Shown here one piece after another: positions 209 through 64,000 of a stretch of DNA of 64,000 nucleotides. Where the stretch lies: contig NC_054741.1 of the NCBI RefSeq assembly GCF_018143015.1, positions 66,402,754-66,466,753 on the forward strand. The letters are read 5' to 3'. This DNA comes from Lytechinus variegatus (taxonomy: Eukaryota; Echinodermata; Echinoidea; Temnopleuroida; Toxopneustidae). How positions within the stretch are numbered: position 1 is the stretch's first letter; every line of letters starts with the position of its first letter. The notes beneath the pieces are model-generated. The model was given only the letters and a program-made list of their open reading frames with translations. It did not search any database and was not told where the DNA came from. Both the position numbers and the translations under genes were made by a program.

Positions 209-1449
209 GTCTCACCTGCATCACGCAGTTCAATATAGCAGCAGTGCTGACTTTGAATACTACTCTAACTTGCACAAGATGTTCAGTGATACATGGTTAC
301 TCTTATGTCCACTTTTTATGAACTAGACCAATAAACTTACAGAGATATGATGGTTATTCAACAGATACACCCAATTCGGCCAAAGTTCATTGACCTTTAA
401 CCTTGGTCATGTGACCTGAAACGCGCACAGGATGTTCAGTGATACTTGATTACTCTAATGTCCAAGTTTAACGAACTAGACCAATAAACTTTCAAAGTCA
501 TGATGGTAATTCAACAGATACCCCGATTCGGCCAAAGTTCATTGACCCTAAATGACCTTTGACCTTGATCATGTGACCTGAAACTCAAACGGGATGTTCA
601 GTGATACTTGATTACTCTTATGTACAAGTTTCATGAATCAGATCCATAAACTTTCAAAGTTATGATGGGATTTCAACAGATATCCCCAATTCGGCCAAAG
701 TTCATTGACCTTTGACCTTGGTCATGTGACCTGAAACGCGCACAGGATGTTCAGTGATACTTGATTACTCTAATATCCAAGTTTAACGAACTAGACCAAT
801 AAACTTTCAAAGTTATGATGGTAATTCAACAGATACCCCCTGATTCGGCCAAAGTTCATTGACCCTAAATGACCTTTGACCTTAATCATGAGACCTGAAA
901 CTTGCACAAAATTTTCAGTGATGCTTGATTACTATTATGTCTAAGTTTCATGAATCAGATCCATAAACTTTCAAAGTTATGATGGGATTTCAACAGATAT
1001 CCCCAATTCGGCCAAAGTTCATTGACCCTAAATGACCTTTGACCTTGGTCATGTGACGTGAAACTCAGGCAGGATGTTCAGTGATACTTGATTAACCTTA
1101 TGTCCAAGTTTCATGAACTAGGTCCATATATTTTCTAAGTTATGATGACATTTCAAAAACTTAACCTCAGGTTAAGATTTCGATGTTGAATCCTCCAACA
1201 TGGTCTAAGTTCATTGACCCTAAATGACCTTTGACCTTGGTCATGTGACACGAAACTCTAATAGGATGTTCAGTAATACTTGATTAACCTTATGGCCAAG
1301 TTTTATTAACTAGGTCCATATACTTTCTAAGTTATGACATCATTTCAAAAACTTAACCTCAGGTTAAGATTTGATGTTGACGCCGCCGCCGCCGCCGTCG
1401 CCGTCGGAAAAGCGGCGCCTATAGTCTCAATTTGCTTCGCAGGTGAGAC
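209..1449. repeat. TIR-bounded minisatellite with DR1-like motifs
   Basis: Imperfect repeats of roughly 140-190 bp with the order CCAAAGTTCATTGACC, TGACCTTTGACCTTGGTC, GATGTTCAGTGATACTTGAT, TATGTCCAAGTTTCATGAAC. Intact TGACCTTTGACCTT cores lie at 553, 706, 870, 1033 and 1225; a mutated one is at about 391. The block is bounded by GTCTCACCTGC at 209-219 and its reverse complement at 1439-1449, and a GCC-rich stretch lies just inside the right end. It looks like a non-autonomous DNA transposon with internal tandem repeats. Confidence 0.75.
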
Positions 1450-2872: not shown

Positions 2873-2956
2873 CTACTCTTTCCGTTTGCTAATGACGTAA
2901 AGAGCGGCGGGTAGGGTGAACGTGCAAACGTCAGCAACAATAAATGCAATGGTCAC
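2873..2956 (-). CDS. SLC43A3-like: Copy A coding exon 9 (last)
   Basis: Residues 518-544 and TAG. Acceptor after TATGCAG. It encodes the last membrane segment ([20 protein letters not shown]) and a short basic tail. It aligns residue for residue with the last exons of B and C (FIVADV, LIVADI). Too short for a simple ORF screen; found from the phase-0 acceptor and homology. Intron 8 (2957-5995) is lengthened by nested repeats. Confidence 0.84.
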   Translation of the reverse strand: MTIAFIVADVCTFTLPAALYVISKRKE

Positions 2957-5900
2957 CTGCATATAGAGTATGAGATAAACACATATAAGGAATCTTATTT
3001 TTTACATTATCATCTCATAAAATAAATATAGGAAGACTATCTTACTTATAATAGGCCTCTTGAATAAGTTCCATGGACATGTCGTATGCAGTACGCATGG
3101 AAATAACAAGCTTGCCAAAGGCTTGTTTGCAGACAGTATTTGACCAATTTGACAATTTAAGATGAACGTTGGTACCAACGAGACACACACATTCCCCCAC
3201 ATACATATGTGACCTACCAATCCCAAAACCACCAATAAGTCGCCTTTTTCGGACTGCTCGGAAGTTCCAGTGATATTACACAGTATGCATTCTCATGCTT
3301 TAGTGAACCCCAAACTTCAAACTTTATTTCTCCTTAGTTTTTGTTACCTTATTTTTTATTATCTTTGGTCAATTTCAACAAATTATATATCATTTGGAAG
3401 CTTAGGAAATGAATTTTCAAGCTCAATAAAAATCTCAATATTCATTTTGGTCGACTTATTGTTGGTTCCGGGGTGGCAGGTCACAGCCTACATGGACATA
3501 AATAAATAAACCCCTCAAAAAAAGTTTTGCAACTCAGTTTTGGGGATGATATCTTTTTGGTTAATGAAGTATAAAAGATGAAACTGGTATCATTAGAAAG
3601 CTAAATTATTCTTCTTTACAATGACATGCCATTTGCTGTGATTAGTATACGTAATCATGGAATTTGCAGTCACCCTGAACATTGAGAAAAGTCAGAAGTG
3701 AAATGTTGCAAAATGCATTGATTTCTAACAAGAGTCTCCATTTCTATAGAATTTCCACCATGCAGGTGGCAGTGAATGCACTCGGTCCATCCTCGAAACA
3801 ATTGGAAATTCGCTATTGAAAACGACGCATTTTGCAACATTTCATTTCTAACATTGCTGCGCATTATCATGTCTGTGTATTTCATGATAACACTAGCATT
3901 ACAAATGACACATGATTGTAAAGAAGAATAATCATGCTTTCTAAAGATATCACTTTTACACATGATGATGGCACATTAAGAAATTTATTACCACTCAAAC
4001 TTGCAGTTTGAGTTGCAGAACTCAAACATGACATGGCAACGAATTTTGCAACATTTCATTTTTTCATTGCTGCACTTTAAAATGTCTGTGTATTTCATGA
4101 TAACACTAGCATTACAATCATTTCCAATGATACCACTTATCTATAGGCTTATGTCGAAAGGGTGGGTGCTGTCGCATTAGGGTGCGTCAACGCGAACGCG
4201 AAGATTCGTCCAAAGCCCCCCCCCCCCGGTTTGGACGAAAGGGTGTGTTTAATAATAATGAATAAATAAATACAAATATTTATAAGAAAGCTGAACAAAC
4301 AAAAAAGACGAGTGATATGTAACCAAATTTGCATAGGAACATAAATCATCATATGGCACAAACATTCTTTTTAAGGCAAAAAAAAAACAATGACGGCATG
4401 CTGCATGAGGATTTTTCGGTGGGAATGTTTTATGGTGTAATATTGATACATGTAAAAATTATGACTGATTTCAAGATTCTTTCAAATAAAAAAAAGTAAC
4501 TTACCTTCAATGTTATACTTTGCATGTGTGTATTTATTACAAAGGAAAACATTCGTATACCTGGAAATATTTGGTGTCCCCCAAATTATAAAACTTACGG
4601 CAGATGTGTCCTGGAAAGGCAAGGCCAAAATTGATGTCAGGTCAGCATTCACAACGTTTAACCCTTCAGACCCTACCTTACTATATTTTACACTTGAGAC
4701 CCTGCCTCAGTATATTTTGTGAGATGTATCTGTTGTGTATGTGTGCGTGTTGTGTGTATGATAATAATAATAATATGTGCGTGTTGTTTGTATAATAATA
4801 ATAATACTTTTGATAATAAAAATAATAACAATAATAATAATAATACTTATAATAATGATAATAATAATAATAATTTTCACCCCAAAGAGTGAATTTATGG
4901 AAATGAATTTGGAGTGAAAAATTGGCGCCAAGTGGCTTATTGCAAGGGTGGGTATCTGATTTTATTATCATTATTATTATTATTCTTAGTTGAACTTTTC
5001 TTTCTTTTCCTCAAATTGTCAATGCTTTAAATGATTGAAAATCCACTATTTTACGTGCAAATTGGCAATGTTTGACAAAATACCTTATATTCAGCTTTCT
5101 TATAAATATTTGTATTTATTTATTCATTATTATTAAACACACCCTTTCGTCCAAACCGGGGGGGGGGGGCTTTGGACGAAAGGGCGCGTTCCAGTGAACG
5201 CGACGCGACGTGGCGCTCCTAACGCACCCTTTCGCCCAAACCGGGGGGGCTTTGGACGAATCTTCGCGTTCGCGTTGACGCACCCTAACGCGACAGCACC
5301 CACCCTTTCGACATAAGCCTATCTATATGATGATGGCACACTAAGAAATTTATTAGCACTCAAACTTGAGTTGCAGAACTTTTTTTGAGGGGTTTATATA
5401 TATTCATGTAAACAATTTCAAGGGAGATGTATTTTCTGATTTAAATGTACAAGAAACTGTGAAGAAGAATAGAAAGAAGACGAAGAAGAGGAAGGATGAG
5501 GAGGAAATGAACGTGAAAACGAGCAGAGGTGAGTAGAAGGGAGTAAAGAAGAATAAATGGTTACACTTCGTAATTCCGAAGGTTCGTAATTCCGAAGGTT
5601 CGTAATTCCAAAACACGTAAATTACCTATACCTCGATATTCGTTAATCTGAAAACGTAAAAGGGTTCGTTAATTCGAACATTTGCGGCGTTATTCCGAAG
5701 AATCGTTATTCCGAAAACAAAATAAGGTTCGTTAATCCGAAAACAAAATAAGGTTCGTTATCATTTAGCTTTCGGACTAATGAACCTTCGGAATTACGAA
5801 CCTCATTGCGTTTTCGGATTAACGAACCTTCGGAATTACAAACCTCACTTCGTTTTCGGACTAACGAACCTTCGGAATTACGAACCTCATTTCGTTTTCG

Positions 5901-8900
5901 GACTAACGAACCTTCGGAATTATGAACCTTCGGAAATACGAATGTGTGCGGAATAGATTACCCTATTCCTTGAATAAATGATATTTCCATCTTACCCAGA
6001 AAGGGTCATCATCGAGGTATCTTTGTAGTAAGATGAAGATTGGGTATTGAAGGAAGGTGAAGAATCCACTCATGGTTCGCATGGCGCCGTATACACTCGT
6101 GAAATACTTCATTGGAAATCTATGACGTCAAAAAATGGAGTAAACTAGTGTAAGCAGTTTGTTCAACATTTCATATATAATCATTAATATGTTACCACAT
6201 ATGCTATGGAATTCACCAACCGGTGAGCAATGGCATATTTAAAGGGACCAAGAAAGGGGACACGTGCCCAAGAAGCCACTTTCAGGGCCCTCAAAACAGC
6301 AACAACGAAAGTTGGCAAGGAATAGGCAGATAAAGACAGGAAGGATAAACCTTTAATGTTTTATTTCATCAACAACCAATAATATAAAGCTAAAATGTTA
6401 GAAATGAAACAGATGTCAGCGTTTTGATTACTGAGTTCAACATATAAAAAAAAGTTTTCAACTTACACTACCGCCACAACCGCTGACCCAACTCCAAAGA
6501 GTAAAGACTTCATCACCAGAATAAAGATAAAAGTGAGATACTGGAGTTGAAGGCTTGGAATCAAAAGGCATATTGAGTAACCAATGGATGCCAGGGTTGT
6601 TATAGCCAGAGGAAGACAGCTATCTCGCATCTCTGCATAAGGACCTCTTCTTTTTTGTTTTTCTCCTGAATGACATTGATCACGGAATAGTTTTAATATT
6701 TGTATAGTACTTGACATATCTGTAATATAACGTTTAAGTTTTCGTCAGCTAACCTTCGACTTCGTTCTTACACTGATTAGCACAGAATGAACGTACCCGG
6801 GCCTTCAACGTTGGATCAAGTTTATGTTTTTATCAACGTTGTATAGACATTTGCAGGTAGCCTTGTATCACGAATGGAAGTGTATACGCGTGCAACGATG
6901 TTTACAACTTATCTGCCAACGTTTGCTAAATGTTGGCTGAAACGGCAATTATGACGCTGATTCAACGTCATGTCAACGTTATTTCGACTTAATTTTAAGT
7001 GAATATAGGCCTACCTTGTCTGATTATTAAAGAAATCATAAAAGCTCAAAATACCTACAAGCTTATACTTACTTTTAGAACAAGAGATGGTGTTTCTGTC
7101 CATGAGAAGGCCACCAAGAGGACCAACGATTAAGATGAAGAATTGTGTGATTGCGAAGACGTTTATATACCAACTCACTGTAGAGGAGAACGAAATGGTT
7201 CATACCTCGTGGCATAATACAGTGGAATTGATTTAATATGATCATAATGGTGATGTTGATTATGACGGCGATGGTGGTGATGATGGACATGGTGGCGGTG
7301 GTAATCATGCTAATGGTGATGACATTATGATTGTGGTGGTGATGGTGATGACTACAGACTACAGTAACGATGTTCATATTTTACTGAGTTACTTTACATA
7401 TAAAAGCATATAAAAATGGTTTTTAGTGTTGAGCACCAATTCCAATGACCGTACATGCAGATTTAGCCATGATTTCAGATTTAATGCAAACAAGGGCGAA
7501 AGCATGGATTGGTAAATCCGTTTTTGTAATGCAATGAAATTTACAAGTCATGCAAGAGAAAATATGGTTCATGCTGCAGGAGTCCCTTTATCCAAATATA
7601 CACCATTTGTCATATCTTTAGGTTTTACTTACCGAGATCTTCATCGCCATTGGACAATCTTGTTAAGAAAAAGTTGAGTGTTCCAAAGGTAAAGAGAACA
7701 CCCGTCTCCAGGAATGCTTGCCAAAAAAGCAGTAGAAAAAATGGCACTGACAAGAGACATGAGCAAAGGCTACCAAACTCTTTCTCCTTCCGTTCTTCAG
7801 TCTCGCAAACGCCATCTTCATTCGTTTCGCTTCTCGTGTCCATGGAAAGAGACAGCTGGCTCGTTTTTCGACTTCGTTTAAACCTTTCTCTGCGTGCCGA
7901 TAGCTCACTAGTCTGTCTGTTGTACCCATTTCCATCCACCCCTTCGCTGAATGGGTCCTCGATGTACCCCTGGTTATCGTAAGCACTCTTTTCCGTTGCC
8001 TTTGGAGAATTCCTGGGTGTCCCACATGTGATGAGTCTATAGCCGTCTGGAAGTGGCCAGGGGATGTACTTAGTAGGGAGAATAAGGAATGTATTGATGT
8101 TGAGGAGGACCACCGATCCGGCCATGATGAAGAAGAGGAGATTGATAGAAAACCCAGCATCATGCACAATCTAGACAGTAAACATGGTAAAAGAAATGTG
8201 GTTATACAAAAAAAATATTAAGAGACACATTCTACTTGCCGTAGTTACCTGTCGCCCTGCAATAAAACCTCTTCCCAACACACTCAATCCATTATTTATT
8301 ACTGTTTTCCATTTTCTTCATTCTTTTGACAGTTCGTTAGGCACATCTATTTTCTAGTTAGAAGTGAATCCCCATCATCAATTTTCTATCAATTAGATCT
8401 GGATTTGATGGAATAAGTAGCACTGTGGTAGCTGACCGAAAAAAAAGACAATGCTCCGAAGAGGAACGCATTAGTTATTGTTTATGCTAGGTTCACACCA
8501 ACGCCGCTTTGATGGCGCTTTAAAGCGGCGTGCAAAGCGGCGGCAAAGCGTAACAAAGCTTAATTAAAGCGTAAAGACCGTAATAGAGCATGAGAAGGCT
8601 TTGAGCAATTCGGGACATTCGGCAAGAGCGCCAAATTTTTTTAAACAGTTTAAAAATTTGAGGCGATCTGTCACGGATTGAGAAAAGCGGGGAGAGCGTA
8701 TTAAAGCTTATCAAACCGTCACAAAGCTTATCAGAGTCGTAGGAAAGCATAACAAAGTTTAAGAAAGCTTGGTTCCAAGCGGTGACCCCACTTTTGATAC
8801 TTTGCCCATAGGCCCTACAGTTAAGGATTCGTTCAGCCTGATTTTACCACTTACAGACCATTGCAAGAAGTACTTATAACCCCAAAACCACTGAATGTGA

Positions 8901-11900
8901 TTTTGATATTTTTGGATCAGCTACTAAATGAAGAGTTGGTCTTTTCAATGAAACAAAAAATAAAAAAAAAACCCGACCAGAAGTGTACCGGGCATTTTTT
9001 TATGGGACACCCTGTATAAAACATAATAAAATGGAAAAGGCAATAGAATAAAAAAAATAAATGAATAGAAAAACTCTGTTTAAAACTCCAAGTTTTCCAC
9101 AAAGTTTTTTTTTCTATCTATTTTTTTATTATATCTAATTTTTTAATTCTACAATGTTTTATATTTTATTTCCTTTGTTTTATTTTCTCTTTTAATAAGG
9201 GTTATTTATCTCACATATAAAATTGATTTTCTTACTAATTTTTAAATTAGTAAGAAAATTTGTAATTATTTGTAATAATCAATTTAACAAAAAAATGCGT
9301 ATTTAAAAAATCTTCAATCGCACATGTCTAAATTTCGAATTCTGCAACTTGATTCCTTTAAATTTTCACTCCTCATTTACAATAGTAGTATTATCTGATT
9401 TTTCATTGGTAAAAAATCAATAGAGTCTGTATTCATAATTTTTAGAAGCAGATGAAATACATAACAACAATAACATCAATAATAATGATAATAATAACAT
9501 ATTCTCAAGAACACATAATACAACAATTATTTCAAACTTATATTAAAAATAAACATAGTCTGCACATAGGAGTATATTCTTATTTCCAGACACAAAAGTC
9601 TTTATCTTCATCATATGCTTCTGAAAATATCTGAGCCACGTCTTTCTTGACTCAATCAGGAAGTGCCACCCCAGCCATTCTTTGTCGCCAGTCAACAGCA
9701 CCCACTGGAAAGTATTCTCAGAGATGATCTCTCTGATGTCTGGCATCCATTGGCGAGGTTTCCCCCTTACAGGTGGTTGCGGAACATCTTCCCAGTGAGG
9801 TCCACCTCTCCTGGCCCCTAGTGCGAAGCTGTGCTCTTCATCTTCGTGGTCCACCGCATTGGCTGCCAGCGCCACCCTCTTCCGCAGCAGGTTGTGGAGC
9901 ACCACAGCAGTCTCCACCAACGCTGTGACGTTATCTACCTTCTGTTCCAGTATTCCCAACAGGCACCGGAACCTGTTGGTCATGATGCCAAATGCATTCT
10001 CCACCACTCTTTTCCCCCTTGAGATCCTGTAGTTGCAGATCCTCTGTTCATCTGTCTTCCCTCTTCTGCTGTATGGCTTCATCATGTAGCTCATCAGGGC
10101 AAAAGCATCGTCACCTAGAATGAAGTAGGGAATATCAAGCTGATTTTCTCAAGGGAGAGGGCATGATGGGGGCAGCCCTATGGACCCATCTTCTAGGCAT
10201 TCGAAACGCGTGTCATTTACCTCACACCTCAATCCAGATGAACTTGTACTCTGCATCTACCAATGCCAGCAGTGGTATAGAGAAGAAGCCCTTATAGTTG
10301 TGGTAGAGACTGTCTGTGATTGCTGGATTCTTAATGGCTGTGTGCTTTCCATCCAAGGTACCAATTGCATGGGGGATATTCCATCTCTGTTCAAACTGCT
10401 GGGCAAGGGTGCTCCATGCTTCAGGGGTGGTAGGTATGTTGAAGACCTCATCTTTATACGCCTCTACAATGGCCCTGCACACTCCTGGAATCAACTCTGA
10501 TATGGAGATACCACATCTGAAACCATATGCCAGTGATCTGTAGTTGTCCCCAGTGGCCAGATGTCTCAAGGTGATTGCTAGGCCAGCGGACAAAGGGTGC
10601 ATTGCTTCTGGATGACTGGTGCAACTCTCGCAAGGATCTCATCGAATACCCCAGGGGTTACTCTGGTGAACATTGTGAAGGCAACAGGGTCCTCTAACCG
10701 CGGTTGTTTGTTAAAGAGGATAGTGTACTGGCCATACTGCTGTCTTCTTTCTTCAGTGAGCCATGGCCTGGTCCAGCAGCACCTGATGAATGGTCTTCTC
10801 CCTCCTGCTGGTAGTTCAATCTCCTCTTGTCTTTGCTGTTCTTTCTCTCTCCTCTGCCTCGAGGGCTATGAAGTAGTTATATAGCAGAGAGACAAAGATC
10901 ATGTCTACATCATAAGATGGTTCAAAGTCTGGTAAATATTGAACTTCCATATCTTGTTCTTCTGCCAATGATGTAATGATTTCGTGTATCTGCTGCATCT
11001 TTATATACTCTGGATCAGTGGCGGGATGCAATCATAATCTCGAATTTTGTCATTTCGTAACAGAGCTTGACAGACCCTATCAATGCACAAGAGATCTTGA
11101 TAATCGTATCAGAGCGTTATTTAAAGCGTGATAAGCCCATCAAAGCTTATCAAAGAGTAATAAAGCATATCAAAGCGTGATTTAAAGCGTGATAAATCCT
11201 CATCAATCGGCATCATAGCGTGAGAAGCCGTAGCGATTCGGGAAATAATTTGTCGCACAAGCGGGAACGAACTTCGTATCAGAGCGTATCAGAGCTTATC
11301 AGAGCATAACATATCTTATGAGATCGTGAGATTTTTTTAAAAGTAAAAAAAAATGACGCCGAATTGATCGCCGATTTAAAGCGCGGCATTCGCCGTTGGT
11401 GTGAACTTAGCATAAGGCCTACTGGTAAGGTCCAACAAGTTTATTGTCATGAGCATGAAATCAAAGCGCCATTGTATTGTTATCGTAGTATAATGATGAT
11501 TCGATGTTGCAATTGCAAAGTGTAAGCGCGCCACCTTGTGTTGGTCTCTTGGCCATGGTTATTAAAGACAGTAACTCGTAACCTCAAAGTTGTCTAGTTT
11601 ATTTACTTCTTTTACCCTAAATTGTGCCTTATAAACCCATGGCGCAGGGCATCTCCAGCAACTCTTATTCACTGTGCACATAACGCTACTCACCAATTTA
11701 CAATGGAGTACAAAGGAAGATCATTCCAAACTAAAATTGCAAATTTCAATCCAATATTTATAAATCATCCTTTAAAATCTTATCTTGTTTTGGTCCGCAA
11801 CCGTAACATTATAAATTGATTGACAATCTATAAGAGAATTTAGATTAGAAGGCTATTGAAGGCAAAATGAACAATATGATTAGGAAACAAGACATACATT

Positions 11901-12770
11901 CTGAAATGTGGATTTCAGATCAGAGGTGCGCGGTTCAGCTATACGATCCTTTTCTGAATTTTCTTTACAAACTTAGATGTCAAAAATGATGTCATGGTTT
12001 ACATTTAAACTACTAGCAAAACAAATGACCTAATTGCAATTTCAAAAGCATAATCAATTATAAGAATTTGTCATTTTGTATTTTAAGAATGATATTTTGT
12101 TGTTAACTGTTGGTGTGCTGAAATTATCCCACCTTTGCAACGAAGAACATAATGACAGATCCACCATACATAGCGTTGATTAGGGTAATAATAGTAGATT
12201 TCTGACCTTCGAACAGGTTCCCAATCTGCTTTTAGGAAAAAAAAAACAATCATAAACATGACAGACAGACTCTGTGCTGTTATTCTTACATTCATGAATA
12301 TAACAGTTAAAAGCAACATAACTTGTTTACTCATGAATTATTTGAAATGGGTATCAGACATTTTTCCCCCTGAAATTCGGTATCAACGTGGAGGGAGTCT
12401 AACTAGAAAGACTTTTTTTCGGTTATTGGCCATTCTGGGACCTGTAACACAAAACTTTGCAATCTTCGTGCTACATTTTTTTTACTGATTGCATTGACTA
12501 AAATATACAATTAATGGTGAAAATCAAGCGTACGATTAATCGCTAACTTTTGTTATTAGAAACAAGAACATCGATGATTTGACTGTAATTATGGCCAATT
12601 GGCCCATTAGACGAACATGATAATGTTACACAATGTGGGCGCTACAAGGACTGTCTTCAATTTGCGGATTTGAATTACCGTTCTAACTAAACTGCAATGT
12701 GCCTTGGTTGCCAAAGAGCTCAAAGTGGGATTGTATGGGAAAGTGAGAAGAAGAAGAAGAAGAAAAGGAG

Positions 12771-12802
<32 letters not shown>

Positions 12803-15800
12803 AAGAAGAAGAAGAAGAAGAAGAAAAAGAAAGAAGAAAATGAAGAAGACTGAAGAAGAAGAAAAAGAAGAAGAACAATCGAAGCGTAATCGAAAAATAT
12901 AAAGTGCAATCTGATGAAGATGAACAACGAAAGACGCCACAGACGCTTAACATAATGGAAAGAGCATCACCCCAGGTGGGTGTTTCATAAAGCTGTTCGT
13001 AAGATACGAATGACTTAACGCACGACTGGTGATCCTTTCTTATGCTATGTGATATCCCTATGTATAGATTTATGACCATAGAGCATGTTCCAGTCCTGCG
13101 TAAAGTTGTGCGTAACTTTACGAACAGCTTTATGAAACACCAACCAGGGATACAACGATGTTAGAGTAGAAAGAGCGCAATTTTAGAACTTGTTCCGGGC
13201 GCAAGTGATTTACATTGATGAGACAATCTCTAGGCCTATAACTTACTTGTATAAATTCTAAAATCATTCATCCCTGCAAAATACAATTTCATGTAGTAAG
13301 AGAATATTCAATGTCAGTATATTAGTTTGTATATAACTTTGAGACAAATCCATAAAGTGAATTGTCGTGAATAAGTTGAAATCGGCTACAAACGGACAGG
13401 GGCCTAATAGCAAATCTGCGTTTCAAAAACCGATTAAGGTCGACCACAGTTTTTATTGAAAAATGACAGATAGTTGGTGTGTTTCTAACATTACTAACCT
13501 GCATAGAAGAGAATAGCATGATGACACCTCCAATTGTAAAACAGATAGTTCCAGGAAAAACAAGAATTGAGTACGTCGGGGAACTGAATGCCATCAAGAT
13601 GTAGCCAACAAGCATCAGGATACTAATGGATATATTTGGTTGGAAAAGGGAAATTGGAGATGGTTAAAAGAGAAATACAACTGCCATGACTGTGTACGCC
13701 TAGTTGATAGAGGACAACCAATGCACTCAACCGAAATAAAGACAAGAAACAAAAAAACAATAAAAAATGTTGAGTTGAAATAGAAATTTTAAAGAAGTAG
13801 AAGTAGTAAATAAAAAAATTATATGTCTTTCTCAACCATGATTATAACCAAAAGCGATTCAAGGGTACTTTGATATGAGATAAGATGGTCAAAAATTTAG
13901 TCCGATCTATTTCTAGAGCTGTTATTCATATATTTTAAAATAATCTCCCCACTCTTATTCTTGTTGTCTGGTTCCATTTTCCCCTTTGTTATCCCTTGCA
14001 AAATACGCATAATACACTTCAATGATTGGCTAAAATGCTAATGTTTTATTCATGTCCTCAAGCATTGAACATTTTTTTTCTGTTCCACAATTCTTAACGA
14101 TATCTGTGCTAAGTGTCTTTTCTTTTTGACTCTGCGAAGTTCAACTTTTTGAAAAACAATAGCAAGACTAATTATTATGTTTGCAGAATTGATGTCCGGA
14201 ATCACGATTTCTGAGAATTGAGCAGAAAATCTTTGAGGGAACATCGGCACCAAACTAATGGCATTCCATACGAATAAAAGAAAGTTAAGTTCAATTTGGT
14301 ACTTTGAACTCACTTGCCATTGTAATGTGTTTGCTGGGGTTCGGCGTCGCAGTCACGTCGGGTCGCATTTATGTTATACTACGAAAACCTCAATTTCCGT
14401 ATTTCCAGAACAGTCTTTTCCTGATCCAAAATAAATCTAAGATCTGACTGACATAATATTTTCTCAAAAAATAATGCAGTTTTTCGTAGAACTAAATTGT
14501 TCAATTTGAATGCCTCATGCACGTCCTTGTTAAATCTGTATTTTAGTTTTATTGTCAAATATCAGGGGTAGATGTGGACTTGTTTAGTAACGACAAAACT
14601 GCATCAAATCTAGGCCAAATATGGTCAGAGCGGGATAAGACCTTTGATACCGCAGGTGCCTGCCGGCTGGGAAATTTCCGATGTAGGCTAGGTAATTGGG
14701 TGTTGAAGTTAAAAGTTAGGCCTGGGCCTACTGATTTTTTTTGACACCGCTATTTCATCTTCATATGAATCAATACAATTATCTGCATTTTAAAAAATAA
14801 TTTAAAAGTAAGTAATGTTATTCGATTTGGAATGATACCAGTATCTAGATTTGATTTGAATTAAATTTATAGTGCTACAAATGCAAGTTGAATGGAAGGA
14901 ACCAGTGCTGTATCGGCTCCTCATTGCTTCTTGCGCTGTCCAAGAAATCAGCTTTTCACGGAGCTTTCGGCCTGACATGCTTGAAGAACCCTGACAACAA
15001 CGTTTAGTTTTTATTTTATCGGAAACCCACCTCATGACCAGACGTGACAATCTGGTACCGTAGTGATCAAATAGAAAACCAACGGGGAACATGCACGCAG
15101 CCTGAACTGCCACGGCCACCGAGAAGACAAGTTGAATACGACTCTCCTGCTCTGGGCAAGACTCCACGATGTCTGTATCACGGCTACGGTTATAAACAGC
15201 GGTAGTACCGATGATCTGTAGTTAGGATGACAACAATACAGATACAGTTGTGTGCTGGAGATCAGAGCTAGGCAGGGGAAGAACATTCTGAGGCTGTATG
15301 AATAATGAATACCTAATTCAAACTTAGATATCAATGATCTTGCTGGAATCTTCAGAATATAATTACACTGTATAGTCGAACAACCGACCTTTTAATTTAG
15401 ATATACGGGAGCTAGTCTAGAGAACGTTAGGATTTAATTAATTTTTAATTCCCATCGAATTCTGGAGGCAAATGTTGATCGACATGACCTCTGTTTTACA
15501 ATATGAACTCCTCAAAAATACAATAATATGCTGCTTTTTATCATGATGAAAGATACATATTCCATGATAGAATATGTGTAATGTCTATCTTCATTTCGAT
15601 TGTGGAAAGCAATTATGTATTTATCACTGATGTGTATTTTCAGGCTAGCCTCACAGAAGACTATAAGAAAAGTTTCAACTCTGCACGACAATTTGCCTCT
15701 TACCTCTGTTGAAGATGTTGAGTTTTCGCTGCTGCCGTAGCATAGGTCGCTGAAATATCCAAGTTGTATGTAGACGAAGACAAGTGAGGGCCAGCCAAAG

Positions 15801-15886
15801 ATGATACCTCCGTGTATTAGATTCTCAAAACAGACAAACACCAGGGCCAGAAGGCGCTCCGTGACCAAGACGGCCTTTATCACCAT
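2873..15886 (-). CDS. SLC43A3-like: SLC43A3-like MFS transporter, copy A (complete, 9 coding exons)
   Basis: Joined exons 15886-15704, 15215-15031, 13622-13499, 12225-12133, 8170-7633, 7177-7073, 6665-6467, 6119-5996 and 2956-2873 give 1635 nt, 544 aa plus TAG, with all phases agreeing. Seen: [11 protein letters not shown] near residue 30 in TM1; a major facilitator loop motif G-x3-D-x2-G-x-R at 107-116; [11 protein letters not shown] at 231-241 before a long polar loop (about 242-325); GLLMDRN at 397-403; [11 protein letters not shown] in exon 7. These match the SLC43 family and vertebrate SLC43A3 best (human is about 490 aa; this one has a longer central loop). SLC43A3 is a plasma-membrane facilitative purine nucleobase transporter; SLC43A1/A2 carry large neutral amino acids, so substrate is inferred only. 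Sequons at N55 and N70 fall in the predicted first extracellular loop. Copy B lies upstream in the same orientation. Untranslated exons were not resolved. Confidence 0.88.
3508..5395. mobile_element. TIR element in intron 8 of copy A, with a nested insertion
   Basis: AAACCCCTCAAAAAAAGTT at the left end recurs inverted at 5369-5395. Inside, left and right halves share further segments (GATGATGGCACA near 3963 and 5331). No transposase seen, so probably non-autonomous. It is interrupted by the element at 4145-5320. Confidence 0.65.
4145..5320. mobile_element. Nested foldback element with 6-bp target duplication
   Basis: Long inverted ends: AGGCTTATGTCGAAAGGGTG at the left returns inverted at the right, and the arms continue through a C/G homopolymer tract and the GTTTGGACGAAAGGGTG motif for about 140 bp. 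ATCTAT flanks both sides (4139-4144, 5321-5326), as expected for a target-site duplication. An (AAT)n stretch lies inside near 4757-4875. Confidence 0.7.
5561..5950. repeat. Direct and inverted GGTTCGTAATTCCGAA repeats
   Basis: The left half repeats GGTTCGTAATTCCGAA-like words, the right half repeats the complement TTCGGAATTACGAACC, so the block can fold into a hairpin. It lies in intron 8 of copy A, ending about 45 bp from exon 8. Confidence 0.65.
5996..6119 (-). CDS. SLC43A3-like: Copy A coding exon 8
   Basis: Residues 476-517, 124 nt. Acceptor after GTCATAG, donor GTAAGA. It encodes [15 protein letters not shown] and FLQYPIF, matching the FPSEHFG and LLQFPIF region of SLC43A3. The upstream three quarters is nearly identical to copy B exon 8, including the adjacent intron. 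Confidence 0.87.
6467..6665 (-). CDS. SLC43A3-like: Copy A coding exon 7
   Basis: Residues 410-475, 199 nt, entering in phase 1 and leaving in phase 2. Acceptor after CATTCAG, donor GTAAGT. It encodes a basic linker and two membrane segments including [11 protein letters not shown], close to the LPLQYLTF region of human SLC43A3. Confidence 0.86.
7073..7177 (-). CDS. SLC43A3-like: Copy A coding exon 6
   Basis: Residues 375-409, 105 nt, phase 1 at both ends. Acceptor after CTCTACAG, donor GTAAGT. It carries [14 protein letters not shown] and the [11 protein letters not shown] motif typical of the SLC43 family. Confidence 0.85.
7633..8170 (-). CDS. SLC43A3-like: Copy A coding exon 5 (central loop)
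   Basis: Residues 196-374 plus one base, 538 nt. Acceptor after TGTCTAG; donor GTAAGT. It encodes one transmembrane segment, [11 protein letters not shown], a polar Ser/Arg/Glu-rich loop of about 85 residues, then two further membrane segments ending in NGDEDLG. Copy C splits this exon with an intron. Confidence 0.87.
8482..11415 (-). mobile_element. PIF/Harbinger-type DNA transposon in intron 4 of copy A
   Basis: Ends read TTATGCTAGGTTCACACCAA at the left and its near-perfect inverse at 11394-11415. Subterminal zones (8520-8770 and 11040-11340) are packed with short words such as AAAGCGTAA, AAAGCTTATC and TATCAGAGCG, as expected of transposase binding arrays. A broken HARBI1-like gene lies between. 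The outer TTA/TAA are complementary, so the exact target duplication cannot be fixed by eye. Confidence 0.78.
9543..11031 (-). pseudogene. HARBI1-like DDE nuclease, broken
   Basis: Fragments in different frames: 11031-10816; a stretch about 10770-10590 with RPWL and QQYGQY motifs; 10602-10222 with [28 protein letters not shown] and [17 protein letters not shown]; and 10094-9543 with [11 protein letters not shown] and [13 protein letters not shown] precedes the last fragment. These are the order and motifs of the PIF/Harbinger nuclease, with the three acidic residues of the DDE triad visible (GTLDG, GDDAF, VVENAF). Frameshifts and stops between the pieces, and material missing after YKFIWIEV, make it non-functional. 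No Myb/SANT-type partner gene was seen. Confidence 0.85.
12133..12225 (-). CDS. SLC43A3-like: Copy A coding exon 4
   Basis: Residues 165-195, exactly 31 codons. Acceptor after AAAAGCAG, donor GTGGGA after GCAAAG. It encodes [20 protein letters not shown], equivalent to the NLFGxxxSTI segment of the SLC43 family. The correct frame is fixed by junction phase 0 on both sides. Confidence 0.83.
12745..12880. repeat. (GAA)n microsatellite
   Basis: Purine-rich GAA/GAAGAG run in intron 3 of copy A, with interruptions. Its minus strand gives spurious Ser/Phe-rich reading frames. Confidence 0.85.
12979..13142. mobile_element. MITE-like foldback, family shared with 33669-33849
   Basis: GGTGTTTCATAAAGCTGTTC at the left end and its inverse at the right end; total about 164 bp, no coding capacity. 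Contains ACTGGTGATCCTTTCTT, also present in the copy in gene B. Confidence 0.75.
13499..13622 (-). CDS. SLC43A3-like: Copy A coding exon 3
   Basis: Residues 123-164, 124 nt, the same length in all three paralogues. Acceptor after CCATTAG, donor GTTAGT after ATGCAG. It encodes TM3 and TM4 ([27 protein letters not shown]). Confidence 0.85.
15031..15215 (-). CDS. SLC43A3-like: Copy A coding exon 2
   Basis: Residues 62-122 plus two bases. The acceptor follows CTACAG; the donor is GTGGGT after ATGAG. It holds [14 protein letters not shown], shared with copy B, then TM2 and the loop motif [13 protein letters not shown]. Confidence 0.85.
15704..15886 (-). CDS. SLC43A3-like: Copy A coding exon 1
   Basis: Codons 1-61, ending in phase 0 before a GTAAGA donor. 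The ATG at 15886 is the first in frame before the TM1 motif GWPSLVFV and aligns within a residue or two of the chosen start of copy B. It encodes TM1 and the start of the extracellular loop (NST sequon at 55). Confidence 0.82.
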
Positions 15887-22525: not shown

Positions 22526-25500
22526 TTAAAATAATTTTATTAATAAAAAATCACATACAAAGCATGAAATATTTTCTTCAACAATACTGTTTTCAAAAAT
22601 ACACAAATGTTTACTTTTACAACGCTTCTCTATTTCTAAACGATTACAAATCAACCTTTTGAATAAACAAAGTATTCCAAAATCATGAATTCTACAATTC
22701 CGACTTTCTGTTCGAATAAAAATTGAATAAATAGCATACCTTGCATACATGATTAGAAGATTCAAAACTCTATGCTTTTTGTTTCGTAACTCATATCCTT
22801 TTGTCATAGTAGCAACATTAAAATAAAAATTAATGCCTACAACTTCATACACAATGCTACTAAATTGTTTCCAGAATAATTGTGTTTTTTTACAAGTCAC
22901 AAATAAATGTACGCTGTCTTGAATTTCATTGTCATGTGAACATAAAGGATTATCTATTAACTTCCATTTATACAAATTATATCTATGGGGTAAAATATTG
23001 TGTAATAACTTATAATTAAACTCTGTTATTCTATTTTCTTTGACAGTTTGTAAATTAAATAACCATACAGATTTCCAATCAATCTCTTCTTGTAAAATAT
23101 TTTCCCATCTTTCTTCAGCTTTAAGTTTAATACTTGTCTTATTCAAAATCATGGTGTAAAATAACTTTGAACCTCTTTTCCTATTTACATTCATCAAAAC
23201 ATTCTGTGTAATATATTCACTCTTAGGTTGCAGAATCTCAAAATATAACTCAAACTTATTCCTTTTCCAAACATTTGGTATGGCATTCATTACAATGTTA
23301 TACTCTTAATGCATACTTTTTTCCAAATAAACCTTCCATTTCCTTTAATGATTTGAATTTGGAATCTAAAATAATGTCTTTTACCTTAAGAATTCCAATA
23401 TCGAACCATCTTTTAAAAAACAATACATTTCCATTGTGATCTTTTATTTTCGAATTAAACCACAGATTTTCCTTCTCGATCTGGATATTCTGAAAACCTG
23501 ATTTATCTTGAACAGTTTGCTTAAAATTAAACCAAGCGTAAATGATCGCTTTATAATAATATGGCATTTTCATTTTGTCTATATGTACTTTAATTTCTTT
23601 TTCTGTACAATTACTATGTAATACAAAATCAAATCCTCCATATTGAGAAAGATAACTATCAATAATTGTACTAAATTTCGATTCTTTGTTATTATAGTAA
23701 TACAAAATCCACTTCAATAAAAAGCTTTGGAGTAACATATTCAAATCTACCATTTTGAGTCCACCTAGATCACATTGCTTACAAACAACCTTTCTCTTTA
23801 CTTTATCAATCTTTCCATTCCAAAGAAAAGAGAACAATAAGGAAGTTAAAAGCTTTACAACCTTCTCTGGCATTTTAATCATTTGAGCATTATACAAAAT
23901 TTGAGAGATAAGAAATGTTTTGATTACAAGTATGTTTCCTATTAAAGTTAGGTGACGTGCATTCCATGATTTAATCAAACGTTCTACTTTCAATATTTCC
24001 AGCTCCAGTTCAAATCGGAGAGATTTTGTTCATCTCCTCCAAAATAAACGCCTAAAATTTTGACATTTGAATTAGTCCAAGGAATGTTTTTGACGTTTTC
24101 ATTAACTGAACCATCTTTTAGATTTATTATGGAACATTTTGTTTTATTCAAATACAATCCTGAAAAAGAACTATACTTTTCTACCTCGTTAATAGCTTTG
24201 TGTAAAGCAAGAGTATCATTAACGAATATTGATGCATCGTCTGCAAACTGCAAAATTTTGATTTCAACTGATTTAAAAAGTTTGATACCTGTAATTTCTG
24301 GGTCATTTCTTATCTTGACAGCTAATACTTCTTCAGCCAGGATGAAAAGCAATGCCGAAAGGGGGCACACCCTTGGCGCACACCTCTCGATATACTAATA
24401 TTTTCTGTTAGCCATCCGTTAAATGTATGTTAACAGAACTTTTTACATTATTATAAAAAGTTTTAACCCATCTGCAAAAATCATCTTTAAATCCATATCT
24501 TTGCAAACATTCAAATAAAAAATCTCGACTGAGGCAATCAAAGGCTTTTCTAAAATCGGTCAGTAACGCTATTCCTCCTTTGGCATGGTTTTTAACGTAA
24601 TAGAATATATCCTCAATTAATCTAACGTTTTCAGCTATACTTCTTCCTTTTATATAACCTACCTGGTTATCTGAAATTAATGTAAATATCACCTTTTGCA
24701 ATCTTTGAGCAATAACTGAAGCTGCAATTTTATAATCATAGTTTAGGAGGGAAATAGGTCTCCAATTTCCAATCTAGATTTGTCACCTTTTTGTACAATA
24801 ATTTTATAATGGCTTGTCTTTGGGAGTTTGATAATTCGTTACACTCAAAACTTTCATTTAAAACAGGCAAAAGTAGAACTTTAATTTCTGTCCAAAATAT
24901 TTGATAAAATTCTATATTGAAACCATCACTCCCCTATTGACTTATTTTTTTTCAAAATCAAATACAGCTTTTTTGCACTCTGATTCAGATAAAATTCCTT
25001 CACACATATCAGCTAAATCGCTAGATAACTTTGGAAGTTGTAAATCAAGAAAATATTCTGCCAAGTCTTGACATTCTTTTGACTTATATAATTCTGAATA
25101 ATATTTATACACATACTTTCTAATGTGTTGCTGATTTTTTATGCTTTTACCTTTATCGTTACGTAATAACAAAATAGAATTATTATCAATATTTCTCTTT
25201 TCTAATGACATAAAATATCTTGAGCACCTTTCACCTTCCTCAAACCAATTTACTCTTGACCTAATAATTGAACCCATACATTTTTGTTTATATATTTTTT
25301 TCTAATTGTTCAGTAGTCTGTTCATAATCTTTTATAATCTCTTCATTGTTATCATTTTTTGAGTTCCAAATTTTTTCGTTCAGCTTTAAGAGTTTTTCTT
25401 CTAATATGCCTTCGTCCTTTTCTTCTTTTTTCTTATGTTTTGCATATCTAATGGAGTATTCTCGTATTCTTATTTTGCACAATTCCCAGGTTTGACGCCA

Positions 25501-26473
25501 GGACATTGATAATTCTGTCTTTTCACGGACTAGATCGCCTATGATTTGTCTAACCTCTTCACAATAATCATTGTTTGTTAAATAAATTTGTATTCAATTT
25601 CCAAACACCTGGACCTTTATTCGTTCCATTAATTTTGATTGTAATGGTGATAGCGTTATGGTCACCATTGACTACTGGTCTTATATCAGTTTTAAGTACT
25701 TAACTTCTTAAATCTTTACTAATTAATATTATATCAATTCTTGATGATATTTGCAAGTATTTATTACGCCACGTAAATTGTCTTTTATCGACGTGAACCT
25801 TTCTCCAAATATCGATAAGATACATTTTTTTCATAAGCTGTTTTAGGGAACAAGGAGTTTTGTATTTGCTTCTTACATTAAATGTGTCAATACTTGGATT
25901 TAATACGCAGTTGAAGTCTCCGCATAAAATTAAATGTGATTTTTCGTCATCTGGACAAAACTTTTGTTTCAATATATTGTAAACATCTCTGAAAAATGCC
26001 TCTCTTTTTAAATGGATATTTGGTGCGTAAATATTAACAACTACTTATTTAATCCATTGTATTTCACATTCTACAATAAGGAACCTTCCAGCACAATCTT
26101 TATGTTCTGATCTATATTTTATCTCAGTCTGTCTTTTAAGCAATATTGCTACCCCACGTGCGTTAGTATTGCCGTGGCTGAAAAACACCGGACCATTCCA
26201 CTCATTTCGTATAATGTTTTCGATATCTTTAGTCCAATGAGTTTCCTGAATTAAAACAAAATCAGCAGCTTGTTTTTTAAACCATTTAAAACACATTTGT
26301 CGTTTCAATTTGTTTCGTAGTCCGTTACAATTCTGGGAAATTGCTAAAATGGACGTAGTCATGTTTGAGATGTTCTTCGTTAGCGTTCCATCATTCATCA
26401 TCCTTTCATCACAACTTTTTTTCATTTTTACGTTTTCGCTTTCTACATTTTCGAGCACGATGTGGATCAGCAA
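22526..26473 (-). pseudogene. LINE ORF2 (endonuclease, reverse transcriptase), multiply broken
   Basis: Domains in order: AP-endonuclease (ISQNCNGLRN, IQETHW, ARGVAILL, CGDFNCVLNP) at about 26380-25700; linker; reverse transcriptase with GYIKGRSIAENVRLIEDI, LLTDFRKAFD and LQFADDASIF at about 24700-24100; C-terminal region with PLCSHD...HLFVTC near 22990-22890. Breaks seen: in-frame stops near 26042 and 25698, and frameshifts near 25575, 25285, 24950, 24410, 24372, 23990 and 23295. Endonuclease nicks target DNA and RT copies the RNA in intact relatives. Active-site FADD and GDFN are still readable, so decay is fairly recent. Confidence 0.85.
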
Positions 26474-27588
26474 TCGCTTGATTTACTGCGTCTACTGTAG
26501 CTTCAGTGAGCTCATCCTCGGTGTTTACTTCTGATTCATCTGATTCAGAGGAGGAAGATCGCTCAATGTATTGTGTGATCTTACTTTGGCCACCAATGGT
26601 TGGCGCGCTGTTGCTACGCGATCTGAACTCGGCCAAAGCTCTTACGACTTGACGAGACTCATGACTGACCGCCGTAGGCTGTCGAGAATCGCGACTCTTG
26701 CCTTTTGTCGCCGTTTTCGGTCGTGTTAGGGGTGCCGATGACGTAACACCGTGGGGTGTGGCCGATTCAAGCGTTGCTACCGGATCGCGTGTGGATATCT
26801 GTGAAGTGGTATAAGGTGTTCCTGTTTGCGTGGTTACCATCATAACTTCAGCTGAACCGTCTGCTCGGAATGCGTTTGTCTTCGGAGTGGGTTGTTCTGC
26901 TTCGGGGCACCTACTTTGCATGTGACCTGGTTTTTTTGCAAGACCTGCAAACTACTTCATGGCTACATTTGGAGCGATGGTGCCCCTCTTTTAGACAATG
27001 GGAACAAATGACCTCTCTCTGTGCATCAGGTTGCCCGGCTTGGAATGCGCGGGCTTTGAAGCTCTGAAAGCGCATAAATCTCGGGAGGGGCTGGGGAGGG
27101 GGGTCGATGTAAACAACTCGGTCTCCTGTGAAACATTGGGTTAATTTTCCATCAACTCGGAGTTTGGGATACATTATGGGACCATTGATTTTCAGATTCA
27201 TCCTTTCAAACTCATCTGAAATGACGTTCTCGTGAACTGATAAAGGAATGTCCTTTATCGTGACGCGGAGAGCGTTGTCTGCTTGATGTGGTAGAAAGGG
27301 GTTCTTGTCGTACACTCTAACTGAAGTGTTTCTAATTTGCATACCTTCTGTGATCAGTCTTATTCTGTTTTGGCGTTCGTTTATGTACAGGCACCAGAGT
27401 CCACCTACTTTCTGGATCCCATGAATATCTTTGGATTCAACTGTCTTACAGATAGCTTTATACATTTCTTCTAGCTCTACCCTTCTTTCACCAGGAATGT
27501 TATTATGCATCACGAAAACTGGCTTACCTTGCCCCTCATTCGGGACTTGTGGTGGCGCCGCCACAGATGCGTAGTTTGTAGCATGCAT
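26409..27588 (-). pseudogene. LINE ORF1 (nucleic-acid binding, zinc knuckles), frameshifted
   Basis: The first piece, 27588-26911 (225 aa), starts at MHATNYASV, has a middle resembling an RNA-recognition fold, and a CX2CX4HX4C knuckle (CSHCLKEGHHRSKC). A second knuckle begins at CRSCKK and is cut by a one-base frameshift in a run of seven A residues near 26930; the other frame (26921-26409) continues with a Ser/Thr-rich, then basic C-terminus. It would bind the element's RNA. The end of ORF1 and the start of the ORF2 reading frame overlap or adjoin near 26410-26470. Confidence 0.8.
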
Positions 27589-27838
27589 GATGTTTTACAA
27601 CGTAGCAGTCCAAGTCTCCAATATTGGCCAGTTGAGGTGAAATTTCGTATCTCGAAATATGTCAATATACTGTTATTAATGGCTATTTACATCAAAGTAG
27701 ATGATAACTTCATATATGACAAACTTACAGATGAGTTTCACAGTAGAATATGTTCGGTTCTTCAGGTTGAAAATCACAAAATTAGATCAGTTTCGGGAGC
27801 GAGAAATCAGTCGCGTGCAACTGTTTACTGAGCGCCCT

Positions 27839-30052: not shown

Positions 30053-30154
30053 TTAGTTCTCCTTTTGGTTTCTTGATCTCGACCTACTACGGAAGTATAG
30101 TGTAGCCGGTAGGACCAGTGTAATCACATCAGCCACGATGAATGCTATGAATAC
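30053..30154 (-). CDS. SLC43A3-like: Copy B coding exon 9 (last)
   Basis: 33 codons and TAA. Acceptor after TATACAG. Last membrane segment [19 protein letters not shown] followed by a tail rich in Arg-Ser pairs, longer than in A. Confidence 0.84.
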   Translation of the reverse strand, partial: VFIAFIVADVITLVLPATLYFRSRSRSRNQKEN

Positions 30155-33100
30155 CTGTATAAATGGAGGAAACAGTATGGAGCATAGTTACAGATATAAC
30201 CTAAGTTATAGTAGGGGGGAAACGTGGCATTTTATTGGTAGTATCCCTGATACCCCCCCGATATTTGAATGATATGGGTAATATAAAGTTACAAGACCCA
30301 TGCAGAATATTCTTTTTTATACTCTTTTATTCCCCCCTTTTCTTTTCTTGTTTCTCCCATCTTCCTCCTCCTCCTCGAAGGCTTATATTTTCACCAATAG
30401 GAAATTTAATTGGAAATGTTATGAAAAGTTAACTTTTATTAAAAAAGGGTATTTATATTGACTCATACTACATGTGAAGTGAAAAATAGAGGGTGAAAAT
30501 TTTGTAGTAAGATTGCTGTGCAAAAAACGACTAAATGATTGATTAAATACACATTCAATTTGCTGTCAATAATTGACAGAAACTATTTTGTTTAGTAGGC
30601 TAGCTACTAGGGATTGATCGGAAATTGTTTCGAGAATGAAACAGAAAATAAAGATTTTGTGTTTATCAAATTAATAAATTAACATCAGGATACATATATA
30701 TGAAGTTTAGCTCACATGGGTTTTCGTCGAATGGATTGTGAGTCTTTACTGGAATGTTTGGCCAACATCTTTCTGTGACGTTAAGAGTACAAGAGCGCAA
30801 GGTAACGATATACCCTTGAATTTCTACAAATATTCTACGTCAAAGTATGGACCTGACTTTTTAAAAGTGTACTCTTTAACAAACAAGGGCCATTTACACA
30901 AAACTCTTCTTTTGGCTTTTACTGGTTGCACAACCAAAAGTTATTTACTTACCCAGAAAGGATCATCATTAAGATAATTCTGGAGTAAGATGAAGATTGG
31001 GTATTGGAGGAAGGTGAAGAATCCACTCATGGTTCGCATGGCGCCGTATACACTCGTGAAATACTTCATTGGAAATCTGTGACGTCAAAAGGAAACCATA
31101 GTGATGTCATTTTCAAAGCAGTGTCTACAAGAAAATTTGATCTCATCTTGTATTTTGATTCTGGTTTCGATTTCTTAACATTACCTTCTGTGCAGAAATG
31201 TTGGGTAAAATAGTTGTACAAACATTACCCACTAAGCGTTTTTTCTCGGGTTTCGCTCTCCTTTATTTCGTAATATTTTTAAGTGTATTTTTTTTATATA
31301 CTGAATATATTGAATTGTTGCTTTTTTCATATTCTATGTTTGTTTTGTAAACTGAAAAATATTTTTTTATCTTTGTATGTGCACTTTTTATGCGAATAAA
31401 GAAAACATTGGATTGAATAAAATATTGATTTTATTAGGTAGGTCAACGGTCCAGAAAAAAAAAAATTCCGTTGACAAAGCAACTTAAAGTGTGACCCCCA
31501 TTACTACGTAATTGTGTTAAAACTATCGACATGGGACATTGAAGTTATGATACCAATGTAACCAGAGGGTACTTTATTTCATAACATAGCAGGACGACTT
31601 ACACCACGGCAACGACAGCAGAGCCGACGCCAAAGAGCAGAGATCCAACAATCAGGATGAAAATAAAGCTTAGATACTGGAGTTGAAGACTTGGAATAAG
31701 AAGACAGACGGTGTAACCAATGGAAGCAAATGTAGTGATCGCCAGAGGAAGACAACTATCTCGCATGTCAGCGTATGGGCCTCTGGTTTTAGATTGTCCT
31801 GGGGAAAAAAATCACACAAAAATCTGGTGTCCGTTTGGTAAAGAAATGTGGGATTATGGAATATTGCCATTCCGATAGCCATGATGATTTGGCTTATCAG
31901 CCAATCAAAATCAATGTTTAATTCTAAGCTACTATAGTTGCAAAATTACCTTAATCGTAATTTCTTTATTAAACGGACCACAGAGCTTGAATTCCAATAA
32001 TCAAAGTATCAAACGGCAACAAATAAATATACTGCAACTGACATCATAAACAAGCCATCGAGAAGTAGGTCGTCCCAACATTAATATGGTCTCATTATCT
32101 CCAGAAAATTGGATAAATTGTTTATCTTAATATTGCCTAACGTCTAAAATGAACATGAGTGCTATGGTTGGTGGTTCCCCTAATAAGAAGCAACAGGACT
32201 GTCTAGTATTTCATGAAGAGTCTTGTCAGTGATTGCCACTCAATGTTCTATTCCAATCATCCACCCAGCAACAATGACTTAAGTAACTTACAATGATATC
32301 AGGGGAAAACCACTGACTATTTTGTTTATGAAATACTCCCTCGATCAGACATAATATTGAAGGGGCGCCACTGATCTAACGTGTATAAGGGCCATGGAGG
32401 GAATCCGGTGTTAAAAACCCGGCAATGGCATTTCTATGAGCAAATCATTTTGTCTACACTGTTTTTTTTTCTTCACATATTAGTACTTCTCTTCTTTTCC
32501 TCCCTTTTCGTGTGCGTCTTTTCCCACCACCAGTCTTAGGTAATTTAGGGTTATAATCACTTTTAAGACAGCATGAAGTCGAGAGTTTGTTCCTGTCCAT
32601 CAGAAGACCGCCAAGGGGACCGACTATCACGACGAAAAATCGAATGATAGAAAAAACGTCTGTGTACCAGCTCACTAGCATGCAGAGGGACGAGAATAAA
32701 CAAATAGAACTGAAAAATTGCATTACCATATGACTCATTAAAGGGGAAGTTCACCCTGAAGAAAACTTTGTTGTAAAAATAGCTGAAAAAATAGTAAAAA
32801 ATATTGTTGAAGGTTTGAGGAAAATCTGTTAAAGAGTAAAAAAGTTATTAGAGTTCCAAATTTGGGATTTGTGACGTCATAAACGAGCAGCTGCCCCATG
32901 TGTTATGTAATATAAAATGTATGAATTTCAAATTCTGTATGGTTCCTGATGACTTAATTTTGTTTTCTTTTCATGATCGGGTGTGCAATGATTTGTCTAT
33001 TGATATACAAAAGTTACAGTGATTTTTTTTTTCAATTTTCTGAGAAAATGACATTTCATTGATTTTTTACCATTCGCTATGTAGGAATGCTGCTCGCATA

Positions 33101-63119: not shown

Positions 63120-64000
63120 ATATAAAGTCAATTGATCTTGGCCATGTGACCTGAAACTCGCACAGGATGTTCAATGATACTTGATTACTTTTATGTCCAA
63201 GACTCCAAGTTTTATGAACTAGACCAATACACTAACAGACTTATGATGGTAATTCAACAAATACCCCTAACATGGCAAAGTTCATTGACCTTAAATGACC
63301 TTTGACCTTAGTCATGTGACCCGAATCTCGCACAGGATGTTCAGTTTTGATTACTCTTTTGTCCTAGTTTCATGAATCAGAATCCATTGACTTTCAAAGT
63401 GATGATGGTGTCACGCGCGTAAAACATTCCCATAGACTTGTGTGTTAAAATGGCACTTTTGAAAAATTCATAAAAAATAAATGTGAAATTAGAGGGTGAA
63501 ATGTTTACTACCATTGGATAGGATATATATCTGGCATTCCATATCTGACCAGGAAAGGGTACCGTAGCCAGCTCATTTTAAAAATAAATCGCCATTTATG
63601 AAGATAACTATGAATGGATCAAATTTATCGACTGAAACAGTAAAATAGCCCTAATTAGTCCGCCAGTCAAAAAAATAGTTCCAAGTCACTTATTTATCTT
63701 CCCAATTCGGGCGAAGGAAGTTCAGTAGTTACCATTTCTAGAATCAGTGTTAGATTTTGAATCATATTCATACATTTTTGTCAATCAGCAACATCAAATT
63801 GAAAAAAAATCGAATGGGTTGGGTCGAACGAATATCTTGAGCCCTCCTGATGTAATTAGGCTCATGGCACCTGATGGCATTCACAAATACCCTCTACTTG
63901 GCCAAAGTTCATTGACCATAAATGACCCTTGACCTTGGTCTTGTGGCTTGAAACTCATGACGGATGTTGATTAACTTTATGTCCAAGTTTCATGAACTAG
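63120..64000. repeat. DR1-type repeat related to 209-1449, interrupted
   Basis: GTGACCTGAAACTCGCACAGGATGTTCA near 63146, an intact TGACCTTTGACCTT at 63296 and a mutated one at about 63923 continue to the window end. The stretch from about 63410 to 63880 (TCACGCGCGTAAAACATTCC...) breaks the pattern and looks like a separate insertion. Confidence 0.65.

Follow-up and report, generated by a model that had tools for sequence, protein, structure and literature searches.

The window analysed here is a 64,000-nucleotide stretch of Lytechinus variegatus DNA (contig NC_054741.1, positions 66,402,754 to 66,466,753 of assembly GCF_018143015.1), and it carries three related genes, all on the minus strand. 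Gene A (2873-15886) is a predicted SLC43-type transporter gene of nine exons (15886-15704, 15215-15031, 13622-13499, 12225-12133, 8170-7633, 7177-7073, 6665-6467, 6119-5996 and 2956-2873). Its joined reading frame is open and its inner exon edges carry AG/GT; the start codon of this model, which was built from the DNA letters alone, was picked by eye. Gene B (30053-38932) is a tandem paralogue of A, arranged head-to-tail with it, and its nine predicted exons (38932-38753, 37825-37635, 36850-36727, 34880-34788, 34421-33899, 32674-32561, 31798-31603, 31076-30953 and 30154-30053) likewise join into an open frame with AG/GT inner edges, a model supported by alignment with A and D. A third and more distant family member, gene C, spans approximately 54784-60612 as judged from matched frames, without an exon model. 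Its exon-8 equivalent lies at 54918-54784 and shows about 47-50% amino-acid identity. Additionally, a DNA search of the genome (869.6 Mb in 33 contigs) with the exon under study returned a third A/B-like paralogue, gene D, on contig C14, where the exon is 75% identical. D shares the nine exons of A and B; its last exon was trimmed at 9774374, with no stop codon located.

The protein predicted from gene A matched the structure of the equilibrative nucleobase transporter 1 (PDB 9l38, E 4e-68, in stretches 19-261 and 324-537), that of the large neutral amino acids transporter small subunit 4 (PDB 9jbs, E 2.6e-46) and the Pfam family MFS_1 (E 2.7e-15). Both solved proteins are, we take it, members of SLC43, and the similarity of A to these structures spans both halves of the MFS transporter. 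Single-exon pieces of A, B and C searched alone in Pfam matched no family. Judged by this similarity, A is a predicted member of the SLC43 transporter family, as is B by its alignment with A; the sequence leaves the substrate class, nucleobase or amino acid, unassigned. The two genes arose by an old tandem duplication of an SLC43-type transporter gene.

Various repeats and mobile elements are distributed among these genes. Transposase-like frames occupy 9543-10865 on the minus strand, within intron 4 of gene A, and the part at 9543-10148 matches Pfam DDE_Tnp_4 (E 3.9e-14). Between A and B, retrotransposon remains extend over 22526-27594 on the minus strand, with a Pfam RVT_1 match at 24408-24773 (E 8.1e-20). 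The frames at 23298-24029 and 26911-27594 in this interval gave no match, and a single non-LTR element is the presumed source of the frames of 22526-27594. Intron 8 of gene A contains inverted repeats of about 100 bp with 92-96% identity (4143-5322 and 5570-5950), together with a cluster of short GTAATTCCGAAGGTTCGT-type repeats on both strands. Beside the exon-8 equivalent of gene C, a 348-bp segment is duplicated in tandem (53852-54550, 98.9% identity), and a related repeat family with a spacing of about 150-160 bp, its members about 70-83% alike, is present at both ends of the window (267-1380 and 63132-64000).

In exon 8, a tract of copy A at 6027-6133 and its partner in copy B at 30984-31090, both on the minus strand, differ at only 2 of 107 positions when compared directly within the window. 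These two mismatches, at 6050 and 6122 in A, are both A/G on the plus strand, and the sequence-only reading that first drew attention to the exon had named the same count and sites. Of the tract, 93 bp are coding and belong to exon 8, and 14 bp (6120-6133) form the end of the upstream intron 7, so that the match does continue into the intron, as had been claimed. The remainder of the exon (5996-6026 in A, 30953-30983 in B) is diverged at 8 of 31 positions, one fewer than the nine or so counted earlier. The boundary inside the exon is thus abrupt, as that reading had it, at 8/31 against 2/107 differences, and the exon-side edge falls at the onset of the A-B differences. On the intron side, the tract reaches to the end of homology, which falls in a T-run common to both introns at 6130-6133; past 6133 only 10 of the next 50 intron bases are alike in an ungapped comparison. 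The two copies of exon 8 are in direct orientation, about 25 kb apart, and the tract occupies the same exon position in both genes with diverged flanks on both sides, as in an in-place replacement.

Across the whole coding sequence, the silent sites of A and B are near saturation (pS 0.676, dS 1.74). Taken exon by exon, exon 8 stands apart with a pS of 0.257, the values of the other eight lying between 0.51 and 0.79. When whole codons are compared, exons 3, 7 and 8 show nucleotide identities of 82.1%, 73.2% and 92.7%, respectively; the earlier estimate by eye for exons 3 and 7 had been about 75-80%. To compare the tract with the rest of the gene, as the sequence-only reading had proposed, silent differences were counted over 340 A-B codons (28 in the tract, 312 outside), after gapped columns, differing amino acids, Met, Trp and stops were dropped. 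The tract is far less diverged, with 1 of its 28 silent codons differing against 174 of 312 outside (Fisher 1.9e-8), which favours conversion, and in the remainder of exon 8 the count is 5 of 8. A run of 28 codons with at most one difference was not reached in any of 100,000 permutations, where the longest such run was 27, and a run of 20 codons with no difference occurred in 4e-5 of permutations. Windows of the same length, 28 silent codons, placed off the tract (261 of them, mutually overlapping) gave a lowest count of 9 differences and a median of 15. Exon 3 is the least diverged of the other exons (12 of 32 silent codons), and even at its rate one difference or none in 28 codons has a probability of 3.4e-5. 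A scan for a second conversion tract elsewhere in the coding sequence found none that was significant (best P 0.21). Exon 3, with identical runs of 27 and 20 bp, had been a candidate and was rejected on this result. The tract itself holds just 18.7 silent sites (pS 0.054, 95% range 0.001 to 0.298), and its age is therefore poorly bounded.

Gene D served as the control for local rate, being the one gene on which this comparison is based. At the tract silent codons, A differs from D at 12 of 24 and B from D at 11 of 24; in the rest of the gene the counts are 180 of 293 and 152 of 277, so the tract is somewhat lower in both cases (Fisher 0.28 and 0.40). Because D differs at these codons, exon 8 is not frozen at silent sites in general, and the earlier view that silent sites are preserved beyond what purifying selection alone would give is supported. 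A, B and D have identical codons at 12 of the 24 tract positions that can be compared, from which it follows that mild constraint contributes. Where the three genes encode the same amino acid by codons that are not all alike, A equals B in 11 of 12 cases within the tract against 51 of 183 outside (Fisher 1.6e-5). Since the tract had been chosen after being seen, the pattern of A equal to B at variable codons was also scanned gene-wide, which gave P 0.0017 with one exception allowed and 0.0028 with none, the most conservative figures of the analysis. Furthermore, a GENECONV-like run test of A against B, of the type suggested by the earlier reading, was performed on the 746 columns polymorphic among A, B and D at all codon positions; the tract forms a run of 20 sites with one mismatch, which none of 20,000 permutations reached.

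The intronic part of the match carries less weight than had been supposed. The match is present, and yet the last 15 bases before exon 8 of D also agree with A at 10 and with B at 10, the highest value among the nine upstream flanks, the other eight of which match at 3 to 9 of 15 (the exon 1 flank not being an intron). This suggests, as far as these flanks go, some ordinary splice-site conservation before exon 8. The near-identical intron end also contains the palindrome TGACGTCA, at 6123-6130 in A and 31080-31087 in B, which is absent from D at this place. In the remainder of exon 8 (A 5996-6026, B 30953-30983, and D), silent states are shared between B and D, with 1 of 6 silent codons differing, and not between A and D, with 6 of 7 differing; these counts show how widely small samples can vary.

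What is observed, in summary, is a patch of low silent divergence that lies in place in exon 8 of both genes; it is bounded on one side within the exon and on the other by the end of homology. An in-place patch between diverged flanks is the signature of non-reciprocal repair that copies from a paralogue. We estimate at roughly 0.85 the probability that ectopic gene conversion between A and B made the tract, in one event or more, and the identification of a gene-conversion tract by the sequence-only reading is thereby supported, through the silent divergence of the tract against the rest of the gene and through the D control. In this process, A and B would have diverged for a long time after the tandem duplication, until a repair event in one copy took the other as its template. 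This would have overwritten about 107 bp, namely three quarters of exon 8, counted from its 5' end, together with 14 bp at the end of intron 7, up to the unrelated introns. Repair may have proceeded by strand invasion, with resynthesis that stayed within the conserved exon and perhaps stopped in the T-run at 6130-6133.

As to the direction of transfer, B agrees with D at both A-B tract differences, and for this reason both residual differences are most simply explained as changes in A. Placing them in A still does not name the donor, and third-position GC gave no separation of donor from recipient (0.58 for A and 0.61 for B in the tract, 0.49 and 0.52 outside). The A/B-like sites among the matches listed in the DNA search of the genome were A, B and D, all of which were scored; in that search, counts for repeats and large families are to be read as at least the numbers returned. 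A tblastn search (E up to 1e-3) of the sequence flanking the window, 50 kb to the left and 50 kb to the right, found no further A/B-like donor copy; 5,000 bases of these flanks read N.

The rival readings account for the same patch in other ways. One version, which overlaps with the preferred reading as a variant of conversion, holds that A and B exchanged sequence repeatedly over a long period, instead of once and recently, so that the core of exon 8 stayed alike and its edges decayed. Decay of the edges under long-term conversion has been reported in Drosophila duplicates (PMC2588116); here, the edge is sharp and not graded (8/31 against 2/107), no second significant tract was found in the coding sequence (best P 0.21), and we regard the version as unlikely. 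It is very unlikely that the patch reflects a silent-site constraint common to A and B and not to D, such as splicing enhancers, an overlapping antisense transcript or a regulatory site. The 12 of 24 tract codons shared by all three genes agree with such a constraint, as do the 10 of 15 bases matching D before the exon and, for a regulatory site, the presence of TGACGTCA in the intronic part of the tract. We take TGACGTCA to be the textbook CRE palindrome, and its position at the intron end of the tract is probably due to chance. Against shared constraint, about half of the tract silent codons in D are unlike those of A and unlike those of B, and the change within a single exon is abrupt (1/28 against 5/8 silent codons). 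Antisense coding was considered separately and rejected: a plus-strand frame does span the tract in both genes (a stop-to-stop length of about 38 codons in A and more in B), but its A-B likeness ends with the tract.

An assembly or polishing error, by which the exon of one copy was written from the reads of the other, is highly improbable. Such an error would have to produce a patch of 107 bp with two differences, beside unrelated introns and with its end inside an exon that is 26% different over the rest of its length, whereas a collapse or misjoin would be expected to bring the flanks along; moreover, the genome is assembled in 33 contigs, and that of the window measures 84.6 Mb.

Ectopic gene conversion between A and B also has to be considered in the light of the little homology available to it. 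The usual homology requirements do not favour conversion between copies with near-saturated silent sites and unalignable introns. That the repair found its template in an island of imperfect homology no longer than about 120 bp, with silent sites near saturation and introns unalignable, is a tentative proposal that we place on the doubtful side. A study of a Dlx gene pair of Capitella teleta cites a need for at least 50 bp of homology, a minimum of 100 bp used by others, and much shorter tracts in yeast (PMC3199776).

Gene conversion is reported in that Capitella pair, a very similar case (PMC3199776). The Dlx genes are inverted, tail to tail, and encode a homeodomain, whereas A and B are transporter genes in direct orientation with their exons about 25 kb apart; its authors also give shorter tracts of uncertain meaning, where A and B show no second significant tract. 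Interlocus, or ectopic, conversion of duplicates is described in Drosophila in two reports (PMC2588116, PMC3924832). As in those duplicates, an unexpectedly low divergence between paralogues is the sign, found there by identity runs with permutation or by conflict between gene trees. In the Drosophila set of one of them, synonymous divergence between duplicates is very low overall (PMC2588116), whereas that of A and B is near saturation save for one patch. Among the matches listed for the gene-conversion and sea urchin literature, there was no mention of SLC43, a statement about those matches and not about print at large.

The A/B tract is very probably an ordinary example of an already known process, correctly read, and it leaves the general picture of gene conversion unchanged. 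As a case of ectopic conversion it is clean and small; the transporter duplicates concerned are old and in tandem, and a third paralogue provides the internal control. In practice, exon 8 would mislead the dating or tree-building of A and B, and probes or primers designed on it would hardly separate the two genes. If the repair was templated on such a short island, exons kept alike by selection would act as isolated conversion islands long after the duplicates should have escaped exchange.
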